Assembly (NCBI RefSeq): GCF_018613235.1
Contig: NZ_JAGGQP010000019.1
Location: 62,001-126,000 of the forward strand
Direction: 5' to 3'
DNA from: Bacillus sp. ISL-41
GTDB taxonomy: Bacteria; Bacillota; Bacilli; Bacillales; Cytobacillaceae
Length of the DNA: 64,000 bases
The notes beneath the pieces are model-generated. The model had not been told where the DNA came from, searched no databases, and worked only from the letters and a program-made list of their open reading frames with translations. Below are positions 11,994 to 40,881 of the stretch, piece by piece; position 1 is the first letter of the stretch, and every line of letters begins with the position of its first letter. The position numbers were made by a program, and so were the translations under genes.

Positions 11994-12014
11994 AATCTAA
12001 GGAGGTAAGGCAGC

Positions 12015-14191: not shown

Positions 14192-14197
14192 TGAAGA

Positions 14198-14680: not shown

Positions 14681-14799
14681 CGCCAAAGTCGAAAAAAGAT
14701 TCTTAGGTGTCATATCAATTGATTAATAGCTTCAAGAAACAACGCATATATTCTATCTGGTCTATAAAACTTTATTTAAAGAAAAGGGAGAGATTTATA

Positions 14800-15880: not shown

Positions 15881-15895
15881 GGGGGGTACATAGCT

Positions 15896-16669: not shown

Positions 16670-16701
16670 ATCAATCAATCTACTAAAAGGAGATGTTACG
16701 C

Positions 16702-18219: not shown

Positions 18220-18224
18220 TCATG

Positions 18225-18262
18225 AGGCGAGCACTCTACGACCTGGGTGCTCGCCTTTCAGA
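18225..18262 (+). terminator. Weak intra-operon hairpin after the aldehyde dehydrogenase
   Basis: Perfect 10-bp stem AGGCGAGCAC / GTGCTCGCCT with a 12-nt loop. The following TTTCAGATTTT is a poor T-tract, so it may attenuate or stabilise rather than end transcription. Confidence 0.55.
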
Positions 18263-18286
18263 TTTTGTGAACAGGAGGAATATATA

Positions 18287-19150: not shown

Positions 19151-19162
19151 AGGAGGATGGCG

Positions 19163-21147: not shown

Positions 21148-21148
21148 T

Positions 21149-21176
21149 CCATAGGGAGAAATCCCTATGGTTTTTC
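21149..21176 (+). terminator. Terminator after the paa operon
   Basis: Perfect CCATAGGG / CCCTATGG stem, then TTTTTCGCTTTT. Confidence 0.88.
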
Positions 21177-21226
21177 GCTTTTAAAGCAAAAAGTTTTTGC
21201 AAAATAATGATAATACTGTAAAATAT

Positions 21227-21253
21227 TCTATAACGGTTTTAATACGTATAACA
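21227..21253. promoter_or_regulatory. Degenerate AACG half-sites upstream of paaX
   Basis: CTATAACGG and ACGTATAAC lie here in an AT-rich stretch 25-50 nt before the paaX start. They resemble halves of the ATATAACGTTATAT operator seen at the paa and ABC transporter promoters but do not form a clean palindrome. Autoregulation of paaX is inference. Confidence 0.35.
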
Positions 21254-21277
21254 AAAACGGATGAGGATGACATAAGC

Positions 21278-22153
21278 TTGAATACAAGATCAATGATTTT
21301 CACTTTATACGGTGACTATATCTCACACTACGGAAGCAAGATTTGGATTGGCAGCCTGATTCGGCTTCTGAATGAGTTTGGCCACAACGATCAGTCAGTA
21401 AGAGCGGCGATTTCCCGTATGAACAAGCAGGGTTGGGTCCAGGCTGAGAAAATTGGGAACAAGAGCTATTATTCATTGACTCCACGCGGCCAAAAAAGGA
21501 TTGATGAGGCGGGTAAGCGTATTTTCAAATTGAAGCCCGAGGAATGGGACGGCAAGTGGAGAATCCTCATGTACACGATTCCTGAAGAAATCCGCAATGT
21601 CAGGGACGAGCTGCGCAAAGAACTGATCTGGAGCGGATTTGGATCGATGTCGAACAGCTTTTGGATTTCCGCCAATAATCTCGAGAGACAAGTCAAGGAC
21701 TTGATCGAGAAATATGAAATCGAACAATATGTCGATTTCTTTGTTGCAGAATACAAAGGGCCACATGAAAATCAGCGCCTTGTTGAAAAAAGCTGGGACC
21801 TTAAGGAAATTAACGCAAAATACCAGGAATTCATCAGTGAGTACAGCCAGAAATACATCATAGATAAAAATAAGATCCAAAAAGGCAGCATGTCTGACGC
21901 TGAATGCTTTGTGGAGCGCACAAAGCTAGTCCATGAATACAGGAAGTTCCTCTTCTTTGACCCGGGCCTTCCTGAAGAACTATTGCCTGAAAAATGGCTC
22001 GGAAGCCACGCATCCGCATTATTCAGCGAATATTATAAGGAACTGGCAGAACCAGCATCCCGCTTTTTTGAGTCAGTCTTCAAAGAAGGAAATGAAATTA
22101 AGCATAAAGACGTGGACTATAATGTAATGGACCACCCTTATATTCTTGAATGA
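21278..22153 (+). CDS. paaX: Phenylacetate catabolon repressor PaaX
   Basis: Transcription factor of the PaaX family; in E. coli PaaX represses paa genes and is released by phenylacetyl-CoA. About 291 residues from TTG 21278, eight nt after GAGGATG. The N-terminal winged helix includes MIFTLYGDYISHYG and SVRAAISRMNKQGWV, and GKWRILMYTIPEEIR starts the central PaaX domain. The longer frame from 21197 lacks a ribosome site and would read through the presumed operator. It follows the paa terminator, so it probably has its own promoter. Confidence 0.92.
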   Translation: MNTRSMIFTLYGDYISHYGSKIWIGSLIRLLNEFGHNDQSVRAAISRMNKQGWVQAEKIGNKSYYSLTPRGQKRIDEAGKRIFKLKPEEWDGKWRILMYTIPEEIRNVRDELRKELIWSGFGSMSNSFWISANNLERQVKDLIEKYEIEQYVDFFVAEYKGPHENQRLVEKSWDLKEINAKYQEFISEYSQKYIIDKNKIQKGSMSDAECFVERTKLVHEYRKFLFFDPGLPEELLPEKWLGSHASALFSEYYKELAEPASRFFESVFKEGNEIKHKDVDYNVMDHPYILE

Positions 22154-27503: not shown

Positions 27504-27533
27504 TTGACTTTAATTAAAATCTGGTGTTAATAT
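27504..27533 (+). promoter_or_regulatory. Promoter of the aromatic ABC transporter operon
   Basis: TTGACT 27504-27509 and TAATAT 27528-27533 with an 18-bp spacer. The -10 overlaps the AACGTT palindrome. Confidence 0.65.
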
Positions 27534-27544
27534 AACGTTATATT
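27529..27544. promoter_or_regulatory. Candidate PaaX operator at the ABC transporter promoter
   Basis: AATATAACGTTATATT is a perfect 16-bp palindrome. Its inner 14 bases are identical to the core of the paa operon palindrome at 10618-10635. It covers the -10 and start region, fitting repression. Confidence 0.65.
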
Positions 27545-27574: not shown

Positions 27575-27588
27575 TGGAATCGCTTTCA
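27575..27588. promoter_or_regulatory. cre-like site (CcpA)
   Basis: TGGAATCGCTTTCA matches the CcpA consensus TGWAANCGNTNWCA with one mismatch. It lies about 40 nt downstream of the -10, where CcpA acts as a roadblock. Confidence 0.55.
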
Positions 27589-27595
27589 AAAAATC

Positions 27596-27690
27596 ACATC
27601 CAGATTCTTGTCTAAATTTTCAAATGGACATCCACTGCCTCAAGTTTTGAATGGACATCCAGACCTTTGCCTAACGTTTTCAAATTTGGT
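27596..27690. repeat. Leader repeats upstream of the ABC transporter
   Basis: ACATCCA occurs three times at intervals of about 27-32 bp. The first and third copies continue as near-identical blocks (CAGATTCTTGTCTAAATTTT versus CAGACCTTTGCCTAACGTTT, both then CAAAT). It lies in the untranslated leader between promoter and first gene. Function unknown. Confidence 0.6.
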
Positions 27691-27762
27691 GCGTTCCGGC
27701 TGCTTTCAAGTTTAAGACTACATAGTTTACTGCCGGTTAAAAAATATTCAAGGGGGATTTTT

Positions 27763-28761
27763 ATGAAAAAATCAGTAAAAGCTATTTCTCTTGTTCTGGC
27801 CAGTGCCTTGTTTATGGCTGGCTGCGGAGGAAATGAAGCATCAAATGGATCTTCAGACAAAGATCAGTACAAAATTGGCCTGACCCAATTCGCAGAGCAT
27901 CCTTCTCTTGATGCCGCAACCGAGGGCTTTAAAAAGGCTCTTGAGGACAAAGGGTTCAAAGAAGGAGACAATGTAACATATGACTTCCAGAACGCGCAGG
28001 CAGACATGAATAACACGGCAAGTATTGCGAATAATTTTGTCGGTGATAAAGTCGACCTCATCTTCGCTAATGCTACACCAAGTGCCGTTGCAGCACTTAA
28101 TGCGACAAAGGATATTCCGATCATCTTCACCTCGGTGACAGATCCGGTCGGGGCAGGGCTTGTTGAAGCATTCGATAAACCGGGCGACAATGTCACTGGT
28201 ACGACCGATAACCATCCGGATGCTACCAAAAAGACAATTGACTTCATGACGAATGAAATAGGCGCCAAGAAAATCGGCGTCATCTATAACGCTGGCGAGC
28301 AGAACTCTGAAGTCCAGCTAAAGGAAGTCAAGAAGCTTGCGAAAGCAAATGGAGCGAAGGTTGTTGAAGCCTCTATCTCTACATCAGCTGAAGTTAAGCA
28401 AGCTGCAGAATCTCTTGTCGGACGTGTTGATGCTATCTACGTCCCTACGGATAATACGGTCGTATCTGCACTTGAATCTGTTATTTCTGTAGCTAATGGC
28501 AAAAAGATCCCGTTATTCGTTGGTGAGCTTGATTCCATGAAGCGCGGCGCCGTTGCAGCCAGCGGTTTCAATTACTATGACATTGGTTACCAGTCAGGCT
28601 TGATGGCTGCTGAAATTCTATCTGGTAATAAGAAAGCTTCTGAGATTCCTGTTGAACTTCCAAAATCATTAACACTGACAATCAACAAAAAAGCTGCTGA
28701 AGAGCAGGGTGTTGAAGTTAAGGAAGAATGGGGAGACGACGCAGAGTTTTACGAAGAATAA
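27763..28761 (+). CDS. ABC transporter substrate-binding lipoprotein (TrpX-like)
   Basis: Extracytoplasmic solute receptor anchored as a lipoprotein. About 332 residues from ATG 27763 after AAGGGGGA. The signal peptide ends in lipobox FMAGC near residue 20. The body (KIGLTQFAEHPSLDAATEGFKKAL, PIIFTSVTDPVGAGLVE, YVPTDNTVVSALE) is the COG2984 family, whose streptococcal member TrpX serves tryptophan uptake. The operon sits between paa and phenylalanine genes under the shared palindrome, so an aromatic amino acid, most likely phenylalanine, is the inferred ligand. Confidence 0.9.
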   Translation: MKKSVKAISLVLASALFMAGCGGNEASNGSSDKDQYKIGLTQFAEHPSLDAATEGFKKALEDKGFKEGDNVTYDFQNAQADMNNTASIANNFVGDKVDLIFANATPSAVAALNATKDIPIIFTSVTDPVGAGLVEAFDKPGDNVTGTTDNHPDATKKTIDFMTNEIGAKKIGVIYNAGEQNSEVQLKEVKKLAKANGAKVVEASISTSAEVKQAAESLVGRVDAIYVPTDNTVVSALESVISVANGKKIPLFVGELDSMKRGAVAASGFNYYDIGYQSGLMAAEILSGNKKASEIPVELPKSLTLTINKKAAEEQGVEVKEEWGDDAEFYEE

Positions 28762-28779
28762 GAGAAAGGATGATTCAAC

Positions 28780-29811
28780 TTGTTTACTTCAATATTTGGA
28801 GCATTTGAGTCCGGCATCATCTATGCCATCATGGCTCTGGGTGTATACTTATCCTTTCGGGTACTTGATTTTCCGGATTTGACGGTTGACGGCAGCTTCG
28901 TAACTGGAGCTGCAGTCGCCGCCATCATGATTGTGAATGGTGCAAACCCATTTGCTGCTACAATGGTAGCCATGGTTGCCGGATTCATCGCTGGGTGCTT
29001 AACAGGCATCATCCATACAGTCGGAAAGGTGAATGCACTTCTGTCGGGTATCCTGTTGATGATTGCCTTGTATTCTATCAATTTAAGAATCATGGGTAAA
29101 TCGAATGTCCCTCTGTTGAACACGGATACTGCCATGACAGCGGTAAGGGACTTTTTCGATAAGACGGGAATTGACGGATTCTTTAATGGCATCCTGACAG
29201 CAGTCGGACTTGGAGACAGTCTTCCAAGAACGTGGGGAATCCTACTTTTCATGATTGTCGTGACGCTGTCGATTAAATTCCTTACTGATGCATTCCTTAA
29301 GACAGAACTTGGACTTGCAATCCGGGCAACCGGCGATAACAAGAGAATGATCCGCAGTTTCTCTTCCAATACCAACCTGATGATCATCCTTGGCCTTGGC
29401 CTGTCGAATGCGATGGTAGCTTTTTCTGGCGCATTGATTGCGCAGCAGGGTGGTTTCGCGGACGTTGGTATGGGGATCGGGATGATTATTATCGGTCTTG
29501 CGTCTGTCATCATCGGTGAGGCTTTGTTCGGTACAAAATCGATTGCTAGAACAACACTTGCGGTCATTGGCGGGGCGATCATTTATCGAATCGTTGTCAC
29601 ACTTGCACTAAGGGTAGAGTTCCTTGAGCCGGGCGACATGAAGCTGATCACGGCGATTATCGTAATATTGGCACTGACTGCTCCGAAAATGATAGAAAGC
29701 TATAAAGAGAAAAAACGGAAGGTAAAAAGGCAGCTTGAGCACATGCAGATGGCAGCTATTCCTTCTGAAGGAAAGGGTGAGGCTGGTGCTGCACTTAAAT
29801 CAGATTCATAG
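28780..29811 (+). CDS. ABC transporter permease (TrpY-like)
   Basis: Membrane permease of 343 residues and eight or nine hydrophobic helices, COG4120 family. GAFESGIIYAIMALGVYLSFRVLDFPDLTVDGS opens the protein, and GLGLSNAMVAFSGALIAQQGGFADVGMGIGMI lies near 205-236. The charged C-terminus contacts the ATPase. TTG 28780 follows AGAAAGGATG. It is 18 nt after the binding protein and overlaps the ATPase gene. Confidence 0.9.
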   Translation: MFTSIFGAFESGIIYAIMALGVYLSFRVLDFPDLTVDGSFVTGAAVAAIMIVNGANPFAATMVAMVAGFIAGCLTGIIHTVGKVNALLSGILLMIALYSINLRIMGKSNVPLLNTDTAMTAVRDFFDKTGIDGFFNGILTAVGLGDSLPRTWGILLFMIVVTLSIKFLTDAFLKTELGLAIRATGDNKRMIRSFSSNTNLMIILGLGLSNAMVAFSGALIAQQGGFADVGMGIGMIIIGLASVIIGEALFGTKSIARTTLAVIGGAIIYRIVVTLALRVEFLEPGDMKLITAIIVILALTAPKMIESYKEKKRKVKRQLEHMQMAAIPSEGKGEAGAALKSDS

Positions 29812-30580
29812 AGTCTTCAATGAAGGTACTCCAGATGAAAAGATCGCCCTGGACAATATTAATCTCACCCTGGAAAAGGGAGACTTTGTCACAGTCATCG
29901 GCAGCAACGGAGCCGGAAAATCCACTTTAATGAATGTGATCTCTGGTGTAATGGTTCCAGATCATGGTCAGGTGGAACTGGACGGTAAGGATGTAACTTA
30001 CATGAGCGAATATAATCGGTCAAAATTGATTGGCCGTGTATTCCAGGATCCAATGGCTGGCACTGCTCCGAGCATGACGATTGAAGAAAACCTTGCCATT
30101 GCATATTCGAGGAATAAACGCAGGACTTTGGGACGCGGAGTAACAAAAAAACGCCGGGAACTCTTTAAGGAAGTGCTTGAGTCACTTCACCTGGGACTAG
30201 AGAACCGCTTGAATGCCAAGGTAGGGATGTTATCCGGCGGTGAACGCCAGGCTTTGTCTCTTCTGATGGCAACATTTACAGAGCCTTCGATACTATTATT
30301 GGATGAACACACTGCGGCATTGGATCCTTCTCGTGCAGAGCTGATAACAAACCTTACAAATGAAATCGTCGATAAATACCATCTCACTACATTAATGGTC
30401 ACGCATAACATGCAGCAGGCTCTCGACCTAGGCAACAGGCTGATCATGATGGATAAAGGCCAGATCATCCTCGAGGTAAACGAAGAACAAAAAGCAAAGC
30501 TGACAATCGAAGACTTGCTAAACGAATTCCAGCGGATCCGCGGAACAAAGATGGCAAGCGATCGAGCGTTATTAGGCTAG
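29786..30580 (+). CDS. ABC transporter ATPase (TrpZ-like)
   Basis: Cytoplasmic ATPase that drives the transporter, COG1101 family. About 264 residues with Walker A IGSNGAGKSTL, signature MLSGGERQALSLL, Walker B ILLLDEHTAALDP and the switch His in VTHNMQQAL. The start is placed at GTG 29786, nine nt after GAAGGAAAGG and matching the usual MLHL-like N-terminus; GTG 29777 is an alternative. It overlaps the permease gene by about 26 nt and ends the operon. Confidence 0.9.
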   Translation: MLHLNQIHRVFNEGTPDEKIALDNINLTLEKGDFVTVIGSNGAGKSTLMNVISGVMVPDHGQVELDGKDVTYMSEYNRSKLIGRVFQDPMAGTAPSMTIEENLAIAYSRNKRRTLGRGVTKKRRELFKEVLESLHLGLENRLNAKVGMLSGGERQALSLLMATFTEPSILLLDEHTAALDPSRAELITNLTNEIVDKYHLTTLMVTHNMQQALDLGNRLIMMDKGQIILEVNEEQKAKLTIEDLLNEFQRIRGTKMASDRALLG

Positions 30581-30681: not shown

Positions 30682-30711
30682 TTGACCATTTATTTAACGG
30701 AATGTTATGAT
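30682..30711 (+). promoter_or_regulatory. Promoter of the thioesterase-PheDH-E1/E2 unit
   Basis: TTGACC 30682-30687 and TATGAT 30706-30711 with an 18-bp spacer. Confidence 0.6.
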
Positions 30712-30731
30712 AACGTTAAATAAACGTTATA
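30692..30731. promoter_or_regulatory. Candidate PaaX operator region before the thioesterase gene
   Basis: ATTTAACG (30692-30699) and CGTTAAAT (30714-30721) are perfect inverted arms, ATAACGTTA lies at 30710-30718, and a second AACGTTATA follows at 30723-30731. The block overlaps the -10 box and start region. The AACGTT core is shared with the paa and ABC transporter operators. Confidence 0.55.
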
Positions 30732-30761
30732 CATATTTGCAACTTGGAAAGGTGGGATATG

Positions 30762-31151
30762 ATGCGAGATGGCTTGATCGCTGGGCATACGGCCTCCATC
30801 GATGTCATTGTTACACCAGATATGTTTGCCCGCTTTGAGGGAAAAGTCGTCCATCCAGTATACTCCACGGTTTCAATGGTGTATCACATGGAATGGGTTT
30901 CACGGCAAATTATCATTCCCTTTTTAGAGGATCATGAAGAAGGAATGGGAGGTGCGGTAACTGTAAAGCACATCGCCCCATGTACCGAAGGAGCTAAGGT
31001 AACAATTACTGCTACCGTCACAGATCTAAAGGACAATACCATTCTTACTAATGTAAGGGCTGAAAGCAAGGGTCGCCTTATAGGAGTAGGGGAAGTAAAG
31101 CAAGTGGTCCTTCCTAAAGAGAAGATAACTGAATTACTTACTGGAAGCTAA
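30762..31151 (+). CDS. FlK-like hot-dog thioesterase
   Basis: Hot-dog-fold acyl-CoA thioesterase of 129 residues. HPVYSTVSMVYHMEWVSRQ holds the Thr and Glu, and VKHIAPCTEGAKVTITATV the His, that correspond to the catalytic triad of fluoroacetyl-CoA thioesterase FlK. ATG 30762 is six nt after AAAGGTGG; the ATG at 30759 is also possible. It heads the phenylalanine unit, so it may hydrolyse stalled aromatic CoA esters to recycle CoA, as PaaI does in proteobacteria; this role is inference. Confidence 0.8.
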   Translation: MRDGLIAGHTASIDVIVTPDMFARFEGKVVHPVYSTVSMVYHMEWVSRQIIIPFLEDHEEGMGGAVTVKHIAPCTEGAKVTITATVTDLKDNTILTNVRAESKGRLIGVGEVKQVVLPKEKITELLTGS

Positions 31152-31168
31152 AAATTTTTGCGCCAAAA

Positions 31169-31182
31169 TGAAAGCGCTAACA
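31169..31182. promoter_or_regulatory. Perfect cre site (CcpA) upstream of phenylalanine dehydrogenase
   Basis: TGAAAGCGCTAACA fits TGWAANCGNTNWCA at every position and has the central CG with dyad symmetry. It lies 30 nt before the PheDH start, between the two genes. It implies carbon catabolite repression, either as a roadblock for the upstream transcript or at a local promoter. Confidence 0.75.
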
Positions 31183-31212: not shown

Positions 31213-32319
31213 ATGGATATGTTCGAACAAATTCGTGAACACGAGCAAGTTGTGTTTTGTAATGATGAAGCAACAGGATTAAAGGCGATTATCGCGATTC
31301 ATAGTACTCGGCTGGGACCGGCTCTGGGCGGCTGCCGTATGTACCCTTATAAATCAGTAGACGATGCACTTGAAGATGTACTGCGACTTTCGAAGGGCAT
31401 GACCTATAAGTGTGCAGCGGCTGATGTTGATTTCGGCGGCGGGAAGGCTGTCATCATAGGCGACCCTACAAAAGATAAAAGTCCAGAATTGTTCAGGGCA
31501 TTTGGACAGTTTGTTGAGTCGATCCAGGGCCGTTTTTATACAGGGACAGACATGGGTACGGATCCGGAAGATTTTGTGCATGCATTAAAAGAAACAAATT
31601 GCATCGTTGGCGTGGATGAAGTGTATGGCGGCAGCGGTGATTCTTCTGTGCCGACAGCACAGGGCGTGATTTTTGGATTGCAGGCAACAAGCAAAGCGCT
31701 TTGGGATACGGATGATTTATCCGGGAAGTCTTATTCGATCCAGGGACTGGGCAAGGTAGGCTACAAGGTAGCAGAATACCTTCTGGAAAATGGTGCAGAC
31801 CTGTATGTTACAGATATCAATCAAAAAGCAATCGACCAGATTGTCCAGAAAGCCAAGGAAATGGGAGCGGGAATCAAGGTAGTAAACAGTGACGAAATTT
31901 ATTCCCAGCCAGCAGACATTTTCATTCCGTGCGCAATGGGCGGAATCATCAACGATGAGACCATTCCACAGCTTCAGGTTAAAGCGGTGGTGGGATCAGC
32001 GAACAACCAGCTCAAGGAAGAACGTCACGGCCATATTCTTCAGGAAAAAGGGATCCTTTATGCGCCTGATTATATCGTTAATGCTGGCGGATTGATTCAG
32101 GTGGCAGATGAGCTGTATTCACCAAACAAGGAACGAGTCTTAAAGAAAACGAAGGCAATCTATAATTCACTTTTAAATATTTACAGACAGGCAGAGAGTG
32201 AAGGAATCACAACGGTCGAAGCTGCGAATAAATTTTGCGAAAACCGGATCGAAGCCAGAACAAGACGCAACAGCTTTTTCTCACATATGAAGCGTCCGAA
32301 ATGGGCAGTGAGGATGTAA
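31213..32319 (+). CDS. pdh: Phenylalanine dehydrogenase
   Basis: NAD-dependent oxidative deamination of L-phenylalanine to phenylpyruvate and ammonia. The 368-residue protein is in the Glu/Leu/Phe/Val dehydrogenase family. [22 protein letters not shown] (Lys 66 and Lys 78) and [11 protein letters not shown] are the PheDH forms; leucine dehydrogenases have NLGGGK and ITAEDVGT here. The tail [15 protein letters not shown] matches the known Lysinibacillus PheDH pattern. GLGKVG marks the Rossmann domain. RBS AAAGGGGGAAAG precedes ATG 31213. It is immediately upstream of E1/E2 genes that would use its product. Confidence 0.92.
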
Positions 32320-32352
32320 TAGATTCATAGACTTATAAAAAAGGGTGAGCCG

Positions 32353-33420
32353 ATGGAAAAGGATTTTCCGATTTTTCAAGTGATGGACCAAAACGGAAAC
32401 ATTGTTTCTGAGGAACATAAAGATTTGGTGACTGAAGAGCGAGTGAAGAAATTTTATTCGGAAATGGTAAGGATCCGGACGCTGGACAGGAAATCCATCA
32501 GTCTCCAGCGGCAAGGGCGAATCGGGACATACGCTCCATTTGAAGGACAGGAAGCTTCCCAGGTAGGAACAGCTCTGGCACTCGAAAGTGAAGACTGGAT
32601 GTTCCCGACGTACCGTGATCATGGTGCGGCAACGGTGTTCGGCCACTCCTTGAGGAATATTTTGCTGTTCTGGAATGGACGAAATGAAGGCTGTGTGCCG
32701 CCGGATGGGAAAAAGATTTTTCCGCCGGCCATCCCGATTGCAACCCAAATTCCACACGCTGCAGGTGCAGCATTTGCCGAAAAGCAAAAAGGTACAAAGA
32801 ATGCGGCCATTTGTTATTTCGGTGATGGCGCGACCTCGGAAGGAGACTTTCATGAAGGCTTGAATTTTGCCAGCGTCTTCAAATCTCCGGTCGTCTATTT
32901 TTGCCAGAACAATCAATATGCAATTTCAGTGCCAATCAGTAAACAAATGAACTCTGCAACCATTGCACAAAAAGCTCTTGCCTATGATATTCCAGGTGTA
33001 AGGATTGATGGTAACGATGTTTTTGCTGTTTTTGCTGAAACGGAAAAGGCACTGCATCGGGCTCGAAATGGTGAGGGACCGACACTGATTGAAGCGATGA
33101 CCTGGCGTTATGGGTCCCATACCACTGCTGACGATGCCTCCAAATATCGTGATCAAGGTGAAAGTGCGCTCAAGCGAATGGACACAGATCCTTTGCTAAG
33201 GCTGGAACGCTGGCTGAAAAATGAATGGCTTTACGATGCAGCATGGGTGAAGGAAATAGAAGAGCAGGCAGCGGCAGAAATTGATGGTGCTGTACAAGAA
33301 ATGGAGAAATTCCCTAAAGCTGACCCGGCTGTGATCTTTGACTATGTTTTTGAGAAACCTACATGGACAATCGAGAAGCAGAAGCGGGAGTACCTTGAAC
33401 TGATCGGAGGTGAAGCATGA
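32353..33420 (+). CDS. 2-oxoacid dehydrogenase E1 component, alpha subunit
   Basis: Thiamine-diphosphate-dependent decarboxylase half of a 2-oxoacid dehydrogenase complex. It has 355 residues with the ThDP motif GDGATSEGDFHEGLNFA (about 157-173) ending in the NN of CQNNQYAISVP, and the phosphorylation-loop-like YGSHTTADD. Homology alone would say pyruvate or branched-chain type. Position 33 nt after phenylalanine dehydrogenase suggests phenylpyruvate as substrate, giving phenylacetyl-CoA; this is inference. Stop overlaps the E1 beta start. Confidence 0.9.
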   Translation: MEKDFPIFQVMDQNGNIVSEEHKDLVTEERVKKFYSEMVRIRTLDRKSISLQRQGRIGTYAPFEGQEASQVGTALALESEDWMFPTYRDHGAATVFGHSLRNILLFWNGRNEGCVPPDGKKIFPPAIPIATQIPHAAGAAFAEKQKGTKNAAICYFGDGATSEGDFHEGLNFASVFKSPVVYFCQNNQYAISVPISKQMNSATIAQKALAYDIPGVRIDGNDVFAVFAETEKALHRARNGEGPTLIEAMTWRYGSHTTADDASKYRDQGESALKRMDTDPLLRLERWLKNEWLYDAAWVKEIEEQAAAEIDGAVQEMEKFPKADPAVIFDYVFEKPTWTIEKQKREYLELIGGEA

Positions 33421-34415
33421 TGGAAACAGCACTTCAGACAAAGACTTTGACGCTTGTCCAGGCGATAACCGATGGACTAGATACGATGCTTAGTGAAAGC
33501 AAGGAAGTGATCCTTCTAGGTGAAGATATCGGGAAAAACGGCGGAGTCTTTCGCGCTACTGATGGCCTTCAGGAGAAATATGGGGAGGACCGCGTAATAG
33601 ATACGCCATTGAGTGAAGCAGGTTTTGTAGGGGCAGCGATTGGCATGGCAGTGAACGGATTCCGTCCCGTTGTGGAAATTCAGTTCCTGGGCTTTATTTA
33701 TCCTGCCTATGAACAAATCATGACCCATGCTTCGAGACTGCGGATGAGAACTCTTGGGCATTTTACTGTTCCAATGGTGATTCGCGCTCCTTATGGCGCC
33801 GGTGTGCGAGCACCTGAAATTCATTGTGACAGCACAGAATCCCTTTTTACCCATATGCCAGGAATGAAGGTAGTCTGTCCATCCAATGCCTATGATGCAA
33901 AAGGACTGATGATTGCTGCGATTGAAGATCCAGATCCTGTCCTATTTTTAGAGCCAATGAGAAGTTATCGTTCCTCACGCGGTGAGGTTCCGGAAGGAAA
34001 GTATACAGTTGAAATAGGTAAAGGAAAGAAGATGACAGAAGGCGAAGATGTGACGGTCATTGCCTGGGGCGCAATGGTACCAGTAGCGATGAAGGCTGCT
34101 GAAGATATGAAGCAAAAGGGGATCAATTGCGAGGTCCTTGATTTAAGGACACTCTATCCTATCGACAAGGACCTTGTCATAGAGTCAGTCCAAAAAACTG
34201 GCCGGACGGTAATTGTCCATGAAGCCCATGCGACAGGCGGTACTGGCAGTGATTTAATATCACTGATCAATGATGAGGCATTCCTTTATCAAAAGGCCCC
34301 GGCAGAAAGAGTGACGGGCTATGATACGCCTGTACCGTATTTTGGTTTTGAAGATCATTATCTGCCGACGCCGAAAAGAGTCGCAGCTGCCATACAGAAA
34401 GTAATGAAGTTTTAG
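33417..34415 (+). CDS. 2-oxoacid dehydrogenase E1 component, beta subunit
   Basis: Beta subunit of the heterotetrameric E1 enzyme, 332 residues. LLGEDIGKNGGVFRATDGL (ThDP-binding Glu near residue 40), DTPLSEAGFVGAAIGMA, FTVPMVIRAPYGAG and HEAHATGGTGSDL are conserved. The start ATG overlaps the E1 alpha stop by four nt, so the subunits are translationally coupled. Its substrate is tied to E1 alpha. Confidence 0.92.
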   Translation: MMETALQTKTLTLVQAITDGLDTMLSESKEVILLGEDIGKNGGVFRATDGLQEKYGEDRVIDTPLSEAGFVGAAIGMAVNGFRPVVEIQFLGFIYPAYEQIMTHASRLRMRTLGHFTVPMVIRAPYGAGVRAPEIHCDSTESLFTHMPGMKVVCPSNAYDAKGLMIAAIEDPDPVLFLEPMRSYRSSRGEVPEGKYTVEIGKGKKMTEGEDVTVIAWGAMVPVAMKAAEDMKQKGINCEVLDLRTLYPIDKDLVIESVQKTGRTVIVHEAHATGGTGSDLISLINDEAFLYQKAPAERVTGYDTPVPYFGFEDHYLPTPKRVAAAIQKVMKF

Positions 34416-34427
34416 GAGGCGTGCCGA

Positions 34428-35756
34428 TTGGTTGAAGTAAAGCTCCATGACATTGGGGAAGGCATGACCGAAGCGGACATCAATTGTTATCTGGTGAAAC
34501 CGGGGGATATCGTCAAGGCTGATGATCCCCTGGTGGAAGTCCAGACAGACAAAATGACCGCAGAGATTCCTGCTCCCCGTGCAGGTGTAATTAAAGAACT
34601 GCTGTTAACTCCAGGGCAAACGGTAAAGGTAGGGACAACTTTACTGATCATGGAGGACAGTACCAGTGCAGGTAAGCCTGTTGAGTCCCAGAAGATAGTT
34701 GAAGCTGTAAAAGCAGCAGCCGAACCTGCCGAGTCTGCGGTAGCTGTTTTGGACAGACCCACTGCAAGCAAGGTCCCTGTAGGTGTTAGTGCGCGACTGG
34801 GCCAGATCCTTGCTTCACCTTATACCAGGAAAGTTGCCCGGGAAAACGGCGTCAATATTATGGAGGTCAAAGGGACTGGACCAGCAGGCCGGATTAACGA
34901 AGAAGATATACTTGCCTTTGTTCATCTAAGAGAGCAAGGGGTTGCGAGTAATTCGGAAGGTGGTTCCGAACAGCAGGTTCCGAACGTTTCGGAAGCAAGT
35001 TCCGAACTGCAGGCTTCGAACCTTTCAGAAGCTGGTTTTGAAGAGAAAGATTCCGCTCGTAATGAGGATACATTGCCATTCCGCGGCCGCCGCAAGCAGA
35101 TTGCAAAAAAGATGGTCCAATCCATGTACACGATCCCTCACTGTACTCACTTTGAGGAAATTGATGTAAGTGAGTTGATCACTTTAAGGGAAGAAATCAA
35201 GGCTTCCGGAAACTCTATTTCTGCAACTGCCTTCTTTATCAAAGCTCTTTCGATTGGGTTAAAAGAATTCCCTGTCTTTAATGCGCGGCTTGATGAGGAA
35301 AACGAACGCATCCTGCTGTTGCGTGAGCACCATATTGGAATTGCCGTGGACACGCCAGAAGGCCTGATTGTGCCGGTAATCAGAAATGTGGAGCAGAAGA
35401 ATTTAAAGGAAATCCATAGTGAAATGAAGCATCTGACAAAGCTCGCCCTTAATGACAAGCTGACGGTTAAGGATATATCTGGCGGTACATTCACGATCAG
35501 CAATGTCGGTCCGCTGGGCGGCAGCATTGGTGCGACACCAATCATTCAGCACCCGCAGACAGCGCTCGTTTCCTTCCATAAAACAAAGAAACGGCCAGTT
35601 GTCACAGATCAAGACGAAATTGCCATCCGTTCTATCATGAATCTGTCAATGGTGTTTGACCACAGAGTCGCAGATGGGGCAACGGCTGTTGCCTTTACAA
35701 ACCGTTTTGCACAGTTGATTGAGAATCCGAAAATGATGTTGTTGGAATTGATGTAA
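34428..35756 (+). CDS. 2-oxoacid dehydrogenase E2 (dihydrolipoamide acyltransferase)
   Basis: Core acyltransferase that passes the acyl group from lipoamide to CoA; 442 residues. One lipoyl domain (residues 1-78, lipoylated Lys 42 in QTDKMTAEIP), a linker, a peripheral-subunit-binding domain around 125-160 (SPYTRKVARENG, GPAGRINEED), a second linker with 12-residue repeats, and the catalytic domain with His 412 in DHRVADG. TTG 34428 follows AGGAGGC. No E3 gene follows; a shared dihydrolipoamide dehydrogenase from elsewhere is expected. Confidence 0.92.
   Translation: MVEVKLHDIGEGMTEADINCYLVKPGDIVKADDPLVEVQTDKMTAEIPAPRAGVIKELLLTPGQTVKVGTTLLIMEDSTSAGKPVESQKIVEAVKAAAEPAESAVAVLDRPTASKVPVGVSARLGQILASPYTRKVARENGVNIMEVKGTGPAGRINEEDILAFVHLREQGVASNSEGGSEQQVPNVSEASSELQASNLSEAGFEEKDSARNEDTLPFRGRRKQIAKKMVQSMYTIPHCTHFEEIDVSELITLREEIKASGNSISATAFFIKALSIGLKEFPVFNARLDEENERILLLREHHIGIAVDTPEGLIVPVIRNVEQKNLKEIHSEMKHLTKLALNDKLTVKDISGGTFTISNVGPLGGSIGATPIIQHPQTALVSFHKTKKRPVVTDQDEIAIRSIMNLSMVFDHRVADGATAVAFTNRFAQLIENPKMMLLELM
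34953..35045 (+). repeat. 36-bp in-frame tandem repeat in the E2 linker
   Basis: Two 36-bp units (34953-34988 and 34989-35024) and a partial third encode SEGGSEQQVPNV, SEASSELQASNL and SEAGFEEK. At DNA level TTCCGAAC recurs three times. The expansion lengthens the flexible linker between the E3/E1-binding domain and the catalytic core. Confidence 0.75.
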
Positions 35757-35814: not shown

Positions 35815-35842
35815 TTGAGAGGGCATGGATAGTTACTATAAA
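35815..35842 (+). promoter_or_regulatory. Possible promoter of the HPPD gene
   Basis: TTGAGA 35815-35820 and TATAAA 35837-35842 with a 16-bp spacer. There is no clear terminator after E2, so readthrough is also possible. Confidence 0.45.
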
Positions 35843-35884
35843 ATTATTTTTAATATTATAAATATTCTTTCAGGAGGTTTTACA

Positions 35885-37000
35885 ATGCAAGAGAAAGTAA
35901 TGGTATCTGGCCAAAGTACAGAGGACTTTTTTCCGGTACAGGATGTTGATTATTTAGAGCTGTATGTAGGGAATGCCAAGCAGGCATCTCACTTTTTCCA
36001 GACGGCTTTTGGCTTTAAGGTAGTAGCTTATTCCGGCCTTGAAACAGGGAATCGTGAAACTACATCTTATGTCCTGCAGCAGCGTAAGATCCGTCTTGTT
36101 GTGACTGGAACCTACAATGATTCATCTCGTGTAGCCCAGTTTGTCAAGGCTCACGGCGATGGCGTCAAGGACATTGCGCTTGCTGTTGATGATGTCGAGA
36201 AAGCGTATGAGGGAGCGGTTAAGCGGGGAGCAATTGAAATCCAGCCGCCGCATGAAGTTTCTGATGAAAACGGTACATTAAAAAAAGCAGTCATCGGTAC
36301 ATATGGTGACACCATCCACACACTTGTTGAAAGAAAAAATTACAACGGCTTGTTCATGCCAGGGTTTGTTGAGCACGAAACAACAGTCCCTGTGAATGAC
36401 GCTGGTTTCATCGGGATTGACCATGTTGTCGGCAATGTTGAGAGAATGGAAGAATGGGTTAACTATTATGCGAATGTTATGGGCTTCAAAGAAATGAAGC
36501 ACTTTACGGATAAGGATATCGTGACAGAGTATTCAGCATTGATGTCCAAGGTAATGCATAATGGCGGTCGCATTAAATTCCCGATTAACGAGCCGGCAGA
36601 AGGAAAGCGCAAGTCGCAGATCCAGGAATACCTGGAATTCTACAACGGACCCGGAGTTCAGCATCTTGCGATTTTGACAGAAGATATTGTCAGCACAGTT
36701 GCACAACTGCATGAAAATGGTGTTGAATTCCTGAGCACACCGGATTCTTACTATGAAATGCTGGCAGAGCGTGTTGGCGAAATTGATGAAGAAATCGATA
36801 AGCTAAAAGAGCTTAGCATTCTAGTAGACCGCGACGATGAAGGCTATCTGCTGCAGATTTTCACGAAGCCAATCGTAGACCGTCCAACTCTCTTTATTGA
36901 AATCATCCAGCGCAAAGGCGCAAGAGGTTTTGGTGAAGGAAACTTCAAGGCTCTATTCGAATCAATCGAGCGTGAACAGGAACGACGCGGCAACCTTTAA
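35885..37000 (+). CDS. hppD: 4-hydroxyphenylpyruvate dioxygenase
   Basis: Fe(II) oxygenase that turns 4-hydroxyphenylpyruvate into homogentisate. About 371 residues in two VOC repeats. Iron ligands are visible as His in FIGIDHVVGNV, His in GPGVQHLAILTED and Glu in TLFIEIIQRKG; GARGFGEGNFKALFESIE is the C-terminal gate helix. ATG 35885 follows CAGGAGG; the longer frame from 35825 has no ribosome site. Opens the tyrosine/homogentisate block. Confidence 0.95.
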   Translation: MQEKVMVSGQSTEDFFPVQDVDYLELYVGNAKQASHFFQTAFGFKVVAYSGLETGNRETTSYVLQQRKIRLVVTGTYNDSSRVAQFVKAHGDGVKDIALAVDDVEKAYEGAVKRGAIEIQPPHEVSDENGTLKKAVIGTYGDTIHTLVERKNYNGLFMPGFVEHETTVPVNDAGFIGIDHVVGNVERMEEWVNYYANVMGFKEMKHFTDKDIVTEYSALMSKVMHNGGRIKFPINEPAEGKRKSQIQEYLEFYNGPGVQHLAILTEDIVSTVAQLHENGVEFLSTPDSYYEMLAERVGEIDEEIDKLKELSILVDRDDEGYLLQIFTKPIVDRPTLFIEIIQRKGARGFGEGNFKALFESIEREQERRGNL

Positions 37001-37005
37001 TAGCC

Positions 37006-37037
37006 GGGAGTGAAGGGGGCGAATCGCTCCCTTTTGT
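37006..37037 (+). terminator. Hairpin after HPPD
   Basis: GGGAGTGA / TCGCTCCC stem (one G-T pair), then TTTTGTT. Probably a partial terminator inside the homogentisate block. Confidence 0.65.
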
Positions 37038-37069
37038 TATAAACGGCGTCTTAGAATTGGGGGATGAAC

Positions 37070-38161
37070 ATGAATGTAAAAGCAAGAGCAGAACTCGAAG
37101 GAATCACACCATACGCCCTCGGACAGACAATTGATGAGATTAAAGAGCAGTATGGACTTACTAAAGTAAGGAAGCTTTCGGATAATGAAAATGTGTATGG
37201 CACATCGCCAAAGGTCAGAGAAGCAATCATACAGGCATCTTCTAAACTGGCATTCTATCCGGACGGATTGACCTCAGGAATCGTGGAGAAACTTTCCGCC
37301 TATTATAAATTGGGTCCAAATCATTTTCTTGTTTCGAACGGTTCAGAGGAAATCATTCGCCTTCTGACAAGAGCGTACATTAATAAAAATGAGGAAGCGG
37401 TCATGGCAGAAGTAACTTTCCCTCGCTATAAAACGAATGTGGTGATCGAAGGCGGCAGAGCTGTCACCGTTCCGATGATTGACGGCAGGCATGATCTTAA
37501 AAAAATGCAGGAAGCCATCAACGAAAAAACAAGAATGGTATTCGTCTGCAACCCGAACAATCCAACCGGAACGATTGTCGCCAAGCACGATTTGCTTTCT
37601 TTTATCGACAATGTACCTTCAAATGTGCTGATCATCATGGATGAAGCTTATTTCGAATACACAGATTCTGATGAATTCCTGGATACGATGCCATTGCTTG
37701 ATCAATATCAAAACATCGTCATCCTCAGAACTTTTTCAAAAATTTATGGCCTTGCCAGCCTGCGAGTTGGCTATGGCATCATGCATGAAGATATCGCGAA
37801 GGAGCTTCATAAAGTCAGGGACGTATTCAATGTGAACCAGCTTGCACAGGAAGCAGCAATAGCTGCTATTGAGGACCAAGATTTCATAAAAGACTGTGCC
37901 GCTAAGAATAGTGCAGAAAGAACTTTCCTTAGTGCGAAGTTTAAAGAGTTGGAGATAGATAGTTTCCCATCGCAATCCAACTTCTTGTTTGCTTTTACAA
38001 ATAGACCAGTTATTCAGAAGCTTACAGAGAATGGTGTTCTTGTCAGGCAGATGCACTTGCCAGGGTACAAGGAAGCATTCCGGATTACTCTCGGCACACA
38101 TGAGGACCATGAGTTCATTTTGAAAATTGTCAGCCAGCTTTTTCATGAAAGGGCGGTGTAA
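37070..38161 (+). CDS. HisC-like aminotransferase, probable aromatic amino acid aminotransferase
   Basis: PLP-dependent class I/II aminotransferase of 363 residues. RKLSDNENVYGTSPKV, NPNNPTGTIV, DEAYFEY and the PLP lysine in RTFSKIYGLASLRVGYG are the HisC-subgroup marks. HisC-like enzymes also transaminate tyrosine and phenylalanine. Placement between HPPD and homogentisate dioxygenase points to tyrosine to 4-hydroxyphenylpyruvate, not histidine synthesis. ATG 37070 is six nt after TTGGGGG. Confidence 0.85.
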   Translation: MNVKARAELEGITPYALGQTIDEIKEQYGLTKVRKLSDNENVYGTSPKVREAIIQASSKLAFYPDGLTSGIVEKLSAYYKLGPNHFLVSNGSEEIIRLLTRAYINKNEEAVMAEVTFPRYKTNVVIEGGRAVTVPMIDGRHDLKKMQEAINEKTRMVFVCNPNNPTGTIVAKHDLLSFIDNVPSNVLIIMDEAYFEYTDSDEFLDTMPLLDQYQNIVILRTFSKIYGLASLRVGYGIMHEDIAKELHKVRDVFNVNQLAQEAAIAAIEDQDFIKDCAAKNSAERTFLSAKFKELEIDSFPSQSNFLFAFTNRPVIQKLTENGVLVRQMHLPGYKEAFRITLGTHEDHEFILKIVSQLFHERAV

Positions 38162-38164
38162 CCC

Positions 38165-38776
38165 TTGGAAATCAAAACAGATCAACTTGAATGGAGAGAC
38201 GCATACAAGCTCTTGCAAGGATCGGTCCTGCCGAGGCCCATTGCCTTTGTTTCCAGCCAGGATGAAAACGGGAACGCCAATCTGGCTCCATTCAGTTTTT
38301 TTACTGTCATCAGCTCAAACCCGATGATGGTCTGCTTTTCGCCAATGAGAAGAGGGACTGACGGCGCGAAGAAAGATACGCTTAAAAATATTGAAAGCAC
38401 AAAGGAGTTCGTCATCAATATTGTCAGTGAGGCGTTCGTCCAGCAGATGAATGACTGTGCGACGGAATTCGCATCAGATGTTGATGAATTTGAGGCTTCG
38501 GGACTGACCAAGGTTGACAGCGTCGCGGTTAGACCATCACGGGTCAAAGAGTCCAAGGTCCATCTTGAGTGTATTCTCGATCAGGTCCTGCACTTTGGCG
38601 GGGAAGAAGCTGGAGCTGGCAGCCTTGTCATTGGCAAAGTTGTTCATGTCCATGTGGAAGATAGCCTTTATGAAAATGGCCGCATTAATTCTGAGAAGCT
38701 AAATCCGGTTGGCAGGCTGGCAGGCGCTACTTATACTCTACCGCTGGCAAAAACCTTTGAACTGCAAAGAAAATAG
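38165..38776 (+). CDS. Flavin reductase-like FMN-binding split-barrel protein
   Basis: 203-residue protein of the flavin reductase-like domain family. VLPRPIAFVSSQDENGNANLAPFSFFTVIS is the FMN-binding opening. Members are either NAD(P)H-flavin reductases or flavoproteins of unknown substrate. Close relatives occur next to homogentisate genes in bacilli, but no role is established. TTG 38165 lies four nt after the aminotransferase stop, with GGGCGGTG as ribosome site. Confidence 0.8.
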   Translation: MEIKTDQLEWRDAYKLLQGSVLPRPIAFVSSQDENGNANLAPFSFFTVISSNPMMVCFSPMRRGTDGAKKDTLKNIESTKEFVINIVSEAFVQQMNDCATEFASDVDEFEASGLTKVDSVAVRPSRVKESKVHLECILDQVLHFGGEEAGAGSLVIGKVVHVHVEDSLYENGRINSEKLNPVGRLAGATYTLPLAKTFELQRK

Positions 38777-38784
38777 GTGATGAC

Positions 38785-39708
38785 ATGAAACTTATTACGT
38801 TTATGAAAAAAGATGGCACAGTGAGAGCTGGCTGGATTGACTCCAGCAATATGGCGGTTGATATGCACGAAGCATCGAATGGGACGTTGCCTGACAATAT
38901 GCTGGCATTCATCGAAAACCATGCGGCATTCATGGAGTATATCCAAGAAAATAAAGGCTTGATTGAGACAGGGAATGGTTCTTATCCGCTGAATGACGTA
39001 ACCTTGAACGCGCCGCTCCCAAATCCTAAGAGTGTCCGGGATTTTTACGCATTCGAGCAGCATGTAAAAACAGCGAGGGAGAACCGGGGGCTTGAAATGA
39101 TTCCTGAATGGTATGAAATCCCGGTATTCTATTTTACCAACCATCTTGCCATCAAAGGGCCAGAAGATGAAATCAGCCGTCCGCAAGCATGCGAGTGGCT
39201 CGATTATGAATTGGAAATCGCCTGTGTCATCGGCAAGGGAGGCCGGAATATCAAGGCTGAGAATGCAGAACAGCATATATTCGGATTTTTTATCATGAAT
39301 GATTGGAGTGCCCGTGATCTGCAGCGTCACGAAATGAAAGTAGGCCTTGGACCGGCGAAGGGCAAGGATTTCGCGACTTCATTTGGTCCATATCTGGTCA
39401 CGAAGGATGAGCTGGATTCCATCAAGGCGGAGAAAGGCTATAACCTGCAAATGACAGCAAGGGTGAACGGAAGGGAACTTTCGAGTGGCAATGTGAAGGA
39501 TCTCTATTATTCCTTCGGTGAGATGATTGAGCGTGCTTCCGCGGGGACGACACTGTATCCCGGAGAGGTAATCGGCTCAGGTACAGTAGGAACAGGCTGT
39601 ATCCTGGAGCTTGGTACAGATGTCCACCGCTGGCTGGAGCCCGGCGATGAAGTAGAGCTTGAGATTGAAGGACTAGGTGTCTTGAAAAATAAAATAATCG
39701 AAGACTAG
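38785..39708 (+). CDS. Fumarylacetoacetate hydrolase family protein
   Basis: C-C bond hydrolase of 307 residues, probably splitting fumarylacetoacetate to fumarate and acetoacetate. The FAH fold shows RDFYAFEQHVKTARE, DYELEIACVIGKGGRNI (metal-binding acidic residues), NDWSARDLQRHEMKVGLGPAKGKDF and GSGTVGTGCILELG. It is shorter than the 420-residue two-domain mammalian enzyme. The neighbour homogentisate dioxygenase supports the assignment. Maleylacetoacetate could be the direct substrate because no isomerase gene is present. Confidence 0.87.
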   Translation: MKLITFMKKDGTVRAGWIDSSNMAVDMHEASNGTLPDNMLAFIENHAAFMEYIQENKGLIETGNGSYPLNDVTLNAPLPNPKSVRDFYAFEQHVKTARENRGLEMIPEWYEIPVFYFTNHLAIKGPEDEISRPQACEWLDYELEIACVIGKGGRNIKAENAEQHIFGFFIMNDWSARDLQRHEMKVGLGPAKGKDFATSFGPYLVTKDELDSIKAEKGYNLQMTARVNGRELSSGNVKDLYYSFGEMIERASAGTTLYPGEVIGSGTVGTGCILELGTDVHRWLEPGDEVELEIEGLGVLKNKIIED

Positions 39709-39723
39709 AAAGAAGGTGTAATT

Positions 39724-40881
39724 ATGTATTACCGTCAGCTGGGAGAAATCCCGAAGAAACGCCATACCATTTTTAAAAAGGAAGACGGTTCGCTTTTTCG
39801 CGAGCAGGTAATGGGAACCAAAGGTTTTTCCGGCACACAGTCAATCCTTTATCATCATCATATGCCGACTGAGGTCGTGAAGAGCGAATTAATCGGCAGT
39901 TACATGCCTGAATATGAAGAACAGGCATCATTGAACCATCGGCACTTCCTGACCGACCAGATCACGAAAACGGGGGATGCTTTAAGTGGAAGGGAATATA
40001 TCCTTGGAAATGATGACCTCCTGATTGGATTTGCGAATATCACTGAAACGATGATGCAATTTTACCGCAATGGTGATGGAGATGAAATGTTCTTTTTCCA
40101 TCATGGATCAGGCAAGGTGGAGACGATGTTTGGAACGATAAACTATCGTCCTGGTGATTATGTCGTAATCCCAATCGGAACGATGTACAGGGTTGTTCCA
40201 GATGATTCTGAGCAGACAAAGGCATTGATTGTTGAATCGTTCAGCCAGATCACGACTCCCCGACGTTACCGCAATGAATATGGGCAGCTTCTCGAGCACA
40301 GCCCATTCTGTGAACGAGATATCCGCGGACCGGAAACGCTGGAAACCTTCTCTGAAAAAGGGGAGCATGAGGTGATCACGAAGACGCGCGGCCATCTGCA
40401 TCGTCACGTGTTGAACCATCACCCGCTTGATGTTGTCGGCTGGGATGGCTATCTGTATCCGTGGGCGTTCAATATCGAGGACTTCGAGCCGATCACCGGC
40501 CGAATCCATCAGCCGCCGCCTGTCCACCAGACGTTTGAAGGCCATAATTATGTTGTATGTTCCTTCGTGCCAAGGCTTTACGACTACCATCCTGAAGCGA
40601 TTCCGGCTCCATATTACCACAGCAATGTCAACAGCGATGAGCTGCTGTACTATGTAGAAGGCAACTTCATGAGCCGCAAAGGAATCAAGGAAGGCTCGAT
40701 TACACTGCACCCAAGCGGGATCCCGCACGGACCGCACCCAGGAAAGACGGAAGCGAGCATTGGCAAAAAAGAAACTTTAGAGCTTGCCGTCATGATCGAT
40801 ACATTCCGGCCGCTGAAAACGGTAAAGAAAGCAATGGGCATCGAAGACGACCAGTATATGTATACCTGGATCGAGAAATAA
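39724..40881 (+). CDS. hmgA: Homogentisate 1,2-dioxygenase
   Basis: Fe(II) cupin that opens the ring of homogentisate to maleylacetoacetate; 385 residues. The C-terminal metal and substrate residues lie in HPLDVVGWDGYLYPWAFN, PPPVHQTFEGHNYVVCSFVPR and LHPSGIPHGPHPGKTE. It is somewhat shorter than the 440-residue mammalian form and of the compact bacterial type. RBS GAAAGAAGGTG precedes ATG 39724. Last gene of the block, followed by a terminator. Confidence 0.93.
   Translation: MYYRQLGEIPKKRHTIFKKEDGSLFREQVMGTKGFSGTQSILYHHHMPTEVVKSELIGSYMPEYEEQASLNHRHFLTDQITKTGDALSGREYILGNDDLLIGFANITETMMQFYRNGDGDEMFFFHHGSGKVETMFGTINYRPGDYVVIPIGTMYRVVPDDSEQTKALIVESFSQITTPRRYRNEYGQLLEHSPFCERDIRGPETLETFSEKGEHEVITKTRGHLHRHVLNHHPLDVVGWDGYLYPWAFNIEDFEPITGRIHQPPPVHQTFEGHNYVVCSFVPRLYDYHPEAIPAPYYHSNVNSDELLYYVEGNFMSRKGIKEGSITLHPSGIPHGPHPGKTEASIGKKETLELAVMIDTFRPLKTVKKAMGIEDDQYMYTWIEK

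Follow-up and report, generated by a model that had tools for sequence, protein, structure and literature searches.

A Predicted Phenylpyruvate Dehydrogenase Complex Encoded with Phenylalanine Dehydrogenase in Bacillus sp. ISL-41

INTRODUCTION

In Streptomyces pristinaespiralis, the pyruvate-dehydrogenase-like proteins PglB/PglC of phenylglycine biosynthesis have been named a phenylpyruvate dehydrogenase (PMC10685826, PMC7089894), within a pathway that the accessible part of PMC7089894 gives as suggested. Here, we analyzed a 64,000-nucleotide (nt) stretch of the 4.6-Mb genome of Bacillus sp. ISL-41 (the window, on contig C12 of assembly G000), in which genes for a phenylalanine dehydrogenase (PheDH) and for the E1alpha, E1beta, and E2 components of a 2-oxoacid dehydrogenase complex form an operon. 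Judging from sequence and gene setting, this operon is very probably a catabolic unit for phenylalanine oxidation, whose complex would act as a phenylpyruvate dehydrogenase and make phenylacetyl-coenzyme A (CoA) directly. PglB/PglC resemble it, by description only, as an E1 alpha/beta complex assigned the conversion of phenylpyruvate to phenylacetyl-CoA, but they are biosynthetic, and their pglA-E operon belongs to an antibiotic cluster without PheDH or a paa gene in the accessible text of these two papers.

The same conversion of phenylpyruvate and CoA, likewise with no ligase, is attributed to 2-oxoacid:ferredoxin oxidoreductases, which are, however, unrelated ferredoxin enzymes of anaerobes without a lipoamide E1/E2 (PMC5109826 and PMC13290082, accessible parts). 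The Bacillus bkd operon (ptb-bcd-buk-lpdV-bkdAA-bkdAB-bkdB) also places an amino acid dehydrogenase of the ELFV fold beside E1/E2; it differs in having a leucine dehydrogenase (LeuDH) instead of PheDH, ptb and buk, and its own E3, and it is separately present in this genome. In descriptions of the paa pathway, PaaK first activates phenylacetate at the expense of ATP. The neighborhoods of PaaK homologues were examined in a 2026 survey; the word "phenylpyruvate" is absent from its main text in the accessible version (PMC13186573). In Thermus thermophilus, TTHA0967 shares an operon with PaaI and PaaK that is controlled by PaaR, and the operator shares its AACGTT core with the sites described below; PaaR is of the TetR type, however, and not PaaX, and no E1/E2 is named as a target in the accessible text (PMC6651687). 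The PheDHs of Bacillus badius and Geobacillus kaustophilus have been studied as biocatalysts, with phenylpyruvate turnovers of 115 per s and 92 per s, respectively, and a kcat/Km for phenylpyruvate of 370 per mM per s for the B. badius enzyme; no pathway partner is named in the accessible part of that work (PMC8543943).

No catabolic lipoamide-type phenylpyruvate complex of Bacillaceae was found in the open PubMed Central literature, which leaves most subscription papers outside and was available in part, and "phenylpyruvate dehydrogenase" means this enzyme there only in PMC10685826. A first-pass annotation of the window had stated that no such complex was known to be characterized in bacilli; this agrees with the open literature on Bacillaceae, but PglB/PglC had already been named in Streptomyces.

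RESULTS

Four intact open reading frames (ORFs) on the forward strand encode PheDH (31213-32319), E1alpha (32353-33420), E1beta (33417-34415), and E2 (34428-35756), separated by 33, -4 (an overlap), and 12 nt. These genes and spacings had been described in the first-pass annotation and are confirmed by the ORF coordinates, by Pfam domains, and by recurrence in relatives. PheDH has the two ELFV domains (PF02812 and PF00208), E1alpha has E1_dh (PF00676, 292 bits), E1beta has Transket_pyr and Transketolase_C (PF02779/PF02780), and the acyltransferase E2 has Biotin_lipoyl, E3_binding, and catalytic 2-oxoacid_dh domains (PF00364, PF02817, and PF00198), which makes the parts of a 2-oxoacid dehydrogenase complex complete except for E3. 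The E2 translation retains DKM, the context of the lipoyl-lysine, and HRVADG close to the C-terminal end. The nearest named relatives by E1alpha are Bacillus sp. ISL-45 (98% identity) and Mesobacillus species (93 to 96%). Since the order PheDH-E1alpha-E1beta-E2 recurs in named relatives (L018-L027, L032, L033, L035, and L038; L and G numbers denote loci and genomes), with E1alpha identity down to 49% in L038, the arrangement is not due to chance. Two of these records, L026 (Chryseobacterium sp. ISL-80) and L033 (Roseburia sp. 1XD42-34), hold loci of the Bacillaceae type, with E1alpha at 91% and 59% identity, and are probably mislabeled or contaminated.

The operon is completed by its first gene, which encodes an FlK-type hotdog acyl-CoA thioesterase (30744-31151, forward strand; Pfam FlK, 113 bits) and ends 61 nt before the PheDH start. 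The thioesterase aligns with its best solved match, 2cwz (E=1.5e-25), which we take to be the TTHA0967 protein, and with FlK (E=2.8e-08), including the Thr, Glu, and His that are presumably the catalytic residues of FlK.

For B. badius PheDH, the accessible part of PMC8543943 gives L50, G51, G52, M75, F86, G123, V144, L306, V309, and L313 as pocket residues and K78, K90, D125, and N276 as catalytic residues. The window PheDH is identical at all 14 positions, with a single constant offset of 12. In the alignment, F86, G123, V144, and L306 are replaced by L, A, T, and V, respectively, in the LeuDH of the same genome, which is 50% identical to the window PheDH; this LeuDH departs from the window enzyme at F74, G111, V132, and L294 (window numbering). 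The G and L signature is kept in 20 of 20 aligned relatives. Annotated plasmid-borne PheDH references were of no use, all 44 records being less than 60% identical.

Besides this complex, the genome has a pyruvate dehydrogenase (PDH) operon with E3 (L008) and a full ptb-LeuDH-buk-lpdV-bkdAA-bkdAB-bkdB cluster (L007) for a branched-chain 2-oxoacid dehydrogenase (BKD); therefore, pyruvate and branched-chain oxoacids are already served. With the PdhA and BkdAA of the genome, the window E1alpha shares 42% and 35% identity, respectively, and E1beta shares 48% with PdhB and 44% with BkdAB. An E1alpha tree of 64 sequences was built by a quick search, with seven near-copies or fragments left out and SH-aLRT values as the only support; 17 of its 61 inner branches are open, and some branches are long. 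The window E1alpha falls outside both the PDH and the BKD groups, and 39 rows, comprising most paa- or PheDH-linked copies and ten copies of a sister kind (see below), cluster with a support of 91, separate from PDH. The paa-linked rows do not make one clade, and the divergent paa-/PheDH-linked copies of L037, L097, L098, and L101, together with L038 at the base, lie outside the 39-row group. In segments that presumably sit by the substrate pocket, most paa-linked and sister copies read TYRDH(G/A) and PIA(T/S)(Q/H), corresponding to GYRDVP and IIGAQ in PDH and to YYRDMG and PVTTQ in the BKD of this genome.

The paa genes, including those for PaaK and PaaX, span 10650-22153, upstream of the PheDH operon; the distance of 20 kb given in the first-pass annotation is correct from paaA to E1alpha and does not describe the gene set as a whole. 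Co-location with paa persists in distant Alicyclobacillus, where E1alpha-E1beta-E2 is followed by paaABCD (L037) or paaK stands ahead of PheDH-E1-E2 (L038). Moreover, the two gene sets share operator-like sites, as that annotation had claimed. A double site with two AACGTT cores, the first inside TAACGTTA, lies upstream of the thioesterase gene and the operon (30711-30730), and TAACGTTA also stands upstream of paaK (10623-10630) and of an ABC transporter (27533-27540). These three occurrences in the 64-kb window compare with an expectation of 0.50, and 1 of 100 shuffles gave three. All 10 close relatives examined (L018-L027) keep the AACGTT pair, placed at -32/-21 relative to the FlK ORF. L094 has a site with 19 identical bases ahead of both FlK and PaaA, and L035, L092, L095, and L116 have comparable sites before paa or ABC genes. 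When 37 loci were scanned for AACGTT within 220 nt of any of seven gene types, with mechanical ORF starts, 21 loci had it and 16 lacked it. In its core, the site is similar to an established paa operator, since Thermus PaaR binds AACnAACGTTnGTT (PMC6651687, accessible part); the adjacent regulator here is PaaX, and both PaaX and PaaR respond to phenylacetyl-CoA (PMC9493321, accessible part). We infer that PaaX binds the shared sites.

A CcpA cre-like site (31168-31182, forward strand) lies between FlK and PheDH, 45 nt ahead of the PheDH start, and close relatives (L018-L027) have it in the same position. Its pattern, WTGNAAGCGNWWNCA, which we take to be the cre pattern, occurs twice in the window (0.19 expected), the second time ahead of the ABC transporter (27575-27589), and 37 times in the 734,952 bases of the 37 loci. 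The sites before PheDH and the transporter probably mediate catabolite repression, to judge from this pattern.

Co-occurrence of E1/E2 with PheDH and paa genes, a survey asked for in the first-pass annotation, was then evaluated in 397 genomes of the order by searches with E1alpha, PaaA, PheDH, and PaaK, and the outcome is in favor of the proposed link. PheDH and PaaA separate cleanly, whereas the E1alpha cut-off (best E value of <=6e-125) had to be drawn through a sparsely populated range with no sharp break. The counts were 159 genomes for E1alpha, 169 for PaaA, and 155 for PheDH, with 142 genomes having all three and 210 having none. The remainder had E1 and PaaA only (8), E1 and PheDH only (0), E1 only (9), PaaA and PheDH only (4), PaaA only (15), or PheDH only (9), so that PaaA was present in 150 of the 159 E1alpha genomes. 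The genome sets were compiled by hand; the totals for PaaA and PaaK (169 and 171) agree with the search tallies, and slips elsewhere are possible. Fourteen genomes with E1alpha between 3.5e-123 and 2e-98 were scored absent, eight of them with PaaA; a lenient count that includes them gives E1 in 173 genomes (158 with PaaA), all three genes in 144, and none in 204. Among these borderline genomes, at least G069 (L101, with paa and PheDH adjoining) and G105 (an E1alpha fragment) are probably true members. After post hoc removal of ten genomes with the sister setting, 149 of 149 E1 genomes have PaaA.

Fisher's test for co-occurrence gave p < 1e-70. Because the genomes share ancestry, a within-genus comparison was also made, for which 26 of 135 genera were tabulated, picked as possibly varying. 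Twenty-two of them vary in at least one gene, and the three patterns are identical in 12 of the 22. With sister copies set aside, E1 varies in 17 genera, and PaaA follows it exactly in 14.

A PaaK match at E <= 1e-100 was obtained in 140 of the 397 genomes, although in G121, G359, and G379, scored as positive, PaaK is present in pieces only. No such match was obtained in 26 of the 150 genomes with E1 and PaaA, 23 of which have PheDH. On these 26, the PaaK profile TIGR02155 found nothing at 1e-10 in 20 and sub-cut-off matches of 102 to 279 bits, the best truncated, in 6; the window's own PaaK also falls just under the cut-off (629.9 of 646.3 bits). Since no convincing PaaK is present there, the complex would be the likeliest source of phenylacetyl-CoA in these 26 genomes, with another ligase or a CoA-transferase as a further possible source. 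In a further relative, Bacillus sp. FJAT-29790 (L030), paa genes and E1/E2/E3 occur with a PaaK-like match of 112 bits only, and the stretch contains no PheDH. PaaK is retained in the window's genome, for which the first-pass annotation had put forward a bypass of this ligase.

There is no E3 gene in the PheDH-E1-E2 operon or elsewhere in the window, the next gene after E2 in the ORF list being that for HPPD at 35825. Of 52 E1alpha copies, taken from loci chosen for varied reasons and not at random (L038, at 49% identity, and L094, with E1 outside the stretch, were dropped), 27 have an E3-like gene no more than 4.2 kb away and in the same orientation. PheDH at up to 4.2 kb or a paa gene within the stretch accompanies 32 of the 52; the sister kind accounts for another 10, and the last 10 are neither. 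The E3-like gene follows E2 in, for example, L023, L024, L027, and L035 (Parageobacillus caldoxylosilyticus, in which it adjoins the genes for E1alpha, E1beta, and E2) and is missing after E2 in the window and its closest relatives. Because it is present near E1 in 27 of 52 copies, the lack of E3 looks like a local absence. The E3 gene was probably lost from the operon in the window's lineage. E3 is often shared between 2-oxoacid dehydrogenase complexes. The idea that no E3 is needed was rejected, since E2 keeps its E3-binding domain and E3-like genes are present in many relatives.

The nine genomes with E1 only, together with G320, carry a sister E1/E2 that is 57 to 62% identical and has a different setting (L077-L084, L087, and L111), with a HisC-like aminotransferase, E1alpha, E1beta, E2, an NhaC-type antiporter, a PHA-depolymerase-like esterase, and, in some, an E3-like gene. 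HpaG1, HpaG2, and HpaF are encoded in 7 of the 10 stretches (L077-L081, L083, and L084) and were not seen in L082, L087, and L111. The ten E1alpha copies form their own clade (SH-aLRT of 98). In the simplest reading, the sister complex is a candidate 4-hydroxyphenylpyruvate dehydrogenase that would feed homoprotocatechuate breakdown, i.e., a tyrosine version. More broadly, Bacillaceae may possess a family of dedicated aromatic 2-oxoacid dehydrogenases with two catabolic branches, one converting phenylpyruvate to phenylacetyl-CoA for paa and replacing PaaK altogether in some genomes, the other converting 4-hydroxyphenylpyruvate to 4-hydroxyphenylacetyl-CoA next to homoprotocatechuate genes, with subsequent hydrolysis by the neighboring esterase; we consider the chances of this broader proposal to be even. 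If it is true, PaaK would serve only for phenylacetate from outside.

DISCUSSION

Four lines of evidence, namely the PheDH pocket, the paa genes at the same locus, the operator-like site common to both gene sets, and the genomes in which no convincing PaaK was found, indicate that phenylpyruvate is converted to phenylacetyl-CoA. Together with the survey, they support the phenylpyruvate dehydrogenase reading of the first-pass annotation, the substrate being predicted from them. PheDH would convert phenylalanine and NAD to phenylpyruvate, NADH, and ammonia. E1alpha/E1beta/E2, which would be thiamine and lipoamide dependent, would then form phenylacetyl-CoA, CO2, and NADH from phenylpyruvate, CoA, and NAD, with an E3 presumably supplied by the PDH or the BKD of the genome, and the ring of phenylacetyl-CoA would be epoxidized by the nearby-encoded PaaABC. 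As a probable relief valve, the FlK-type thioesterase would release phenylacetate and so free CoA and protect its pool, and PaaK could reactivate the phenylacetate. Phenylacetyl-CoA would release a PaaX-type repressor and thereby switch on the PheDH operon jointly with the paa operon and the ABC importer. Compared to a decarboxylase-aldehyde route, the ATP used by PaaK would be spared.

Several observations weigh against this assignment. By overall sequence, the solved structures nearest to the window PheDH are leucine dehydrogenases, with Rhodococcus PheDH much lower, and no NCBIfam model scored above cut-off for it, the best being that for the tryptophan dehydrogenase ScyB (393.7 of 600 bits). 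E1alpha is named a pyruvate dehydrogenase subunit by NCBIfam TIGR03181 (469.7 versus a cut-off of 411.35), and its closest solved structures are E1alpha subunits of pyruvate dehydrogenase. Membership in the wider family does not by itself imply an aromatic substrate, because E1/E2 at 51 to 54% identity occur in L099, L100, L102, and L125-L128 without a paa neighbor; a phylum-wide search gave matches at E <= 1e-95 in 7 of 298 other genomes, with paa neighbors in 0 of the 7 stretches. The window genome still encodes PaaK. Moreover, PaaK is missing in 4 of 19 PaaA genomes without E1 versus 26 of 150 with E1; the PaaK argument is therefore one of existence, and PaaK absence was not upheld as evidence of enrichment. 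Three of the four E1-less genomes are fragmentary or damaged (G105 with an E1alpha fragment, query 118-348; G128 with a stop inside PaaA; G248 with a PaaK fragment, profile 299-422), and the fourth, G374, has a distant PaaA match only (E=8.7e-61) and a PaaK-like match of 288 bits. Finally, a VOR-like 2-oxoacid:ferredoxin oxidoreductase, named by eye (L117, G000:C1:37638), might use phenylpyruvate too; an IOR alpha profile gave only sub-cut-off matches. Three TPP_enzyme_N proteins were assigned by eye from their first residues, with no family search run, as an acetolactate-synthase type, IlvB, and MenD, and a phenylpyruvate decarboxylase might conceivably be among them.

Both the TIGR03181 score and the nearest solved structures would fit a spare pyruvate dehydrogenase paralogue placed here by accident, but such an accident is hardly credible given a setting conserved across genera, the split of 142 genomes with all three genes and 210 with none, TYRDH and PIATQ in place of the PDH motifs, and a PDH elsewhere in the genome; this candidate was rejected on the tree, the motifs, and the gene setting. 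It is also very improbable that a second, broad-specificity branched-chain complex was recruited beside PheDH. Such complexes can be promiscuous, and some E1alpha segments are nearer to the branched-chain than to the pyruvate enzyme; however, co-occurrence tracks paa and PheDH, and the candidate was rejected because the genome has its full bkd cluster at a separate locus. In addition, E1alpha is only 35% identical to BkdAA, and the ptb/LeuDH/buk setting is missing.

The position of genes for HPPD and a HisC-like aminotransferase directly downstream raises the question of a broad aromatic 2-oxoacid dehydrogenase that would also, or mainly, convert 4-hydroxyphenylpyruvate from the adjoining tyrosine genes to 4-hydroxyphenylacetyl-CoA, and the sister complexes, with their HisC-like aminotransferase and frequent HpaG/HpaF, lend this some weight. 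We nevertheless consider it unlikely, as HPPD and HGD already handle 4-hydroxyphenylpyruvate here, the dehydrogenase within the operon has a PheDH pocket, the partner cluster is paa, whose epoxidase substrate is phenylacetyl-CoA, and the sister copies branch separately. If the complex is indeed a phenylpyruvate dehydrogenase, 142 of the 397 sampled species of the order, i.e., more than one-third, could enter paa from phenylalanine with no aldehyde or free acid on the way and no use of ATP, and some of them would be overlooked when PaaK is the basis of a survey. It would also provide a physiological partner for the industrially used PheDHs, correct the "pyruvate dehydrogenase" annotation, and represent a ferredoxin-free source of phenylacetyl-CoA.

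NEIGHBORING GENES AND FURTHER COPIES

All neighboring gene sets discussed here are on the forward strand. The conventional entry, the phenylacetate-CoA ligase PaaK (10650-11993), is followed by ring-epoxidation and beta-oxidation genes of paa through PaaX, recognized by Pfam (12015-22153). No PaaE-type reductase was recognized by the Pfam scan among the 13 proteins of the cluster, and an EthD-domain protein (14707-15108) is part of the conserved cluster. The transporter of the ABC_sub_bind type (27667-30580; PF04392 on the binding protein) recurs beside paa and the PheDH operon in other genomes and, with its operator-like site, may belong to their regulon and import aromatic amino acids. Downstream of E2 lie tyrosine (homogentisate) catabolic genes identified by NCBIfam and Pfam (35825-40881), which encode HPPD and HisC-like, flavin-reductase-like, FAH-like, and HGD-like proteins; the flavin-reductase-like protein (38165-38776) has no good NCBIfam match.

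A second PheDH-like dehydrogenase gene is present in the same genome (L046:7175-10293, on contig C33), its product 55% identical to the window PheDH and carrying the G and L signature, with ptb and buk and without E1. A dehydrogenase 80% identical to this one directly precedes E1/E2/E3 in L089, the locus of the G016 E1 copy, next to an amino acid permease and a TyrR-like regulator. This copy and the second copies in G042 (L085) and G362 (L086) have neither the paa nor the sister setting. L085 and L086 contain extra E1alpha/E1beta pairs without an adjoining E2, and the two E1 sets of L085 are separated by about 10 kb, an interval that includes ptb and buk.

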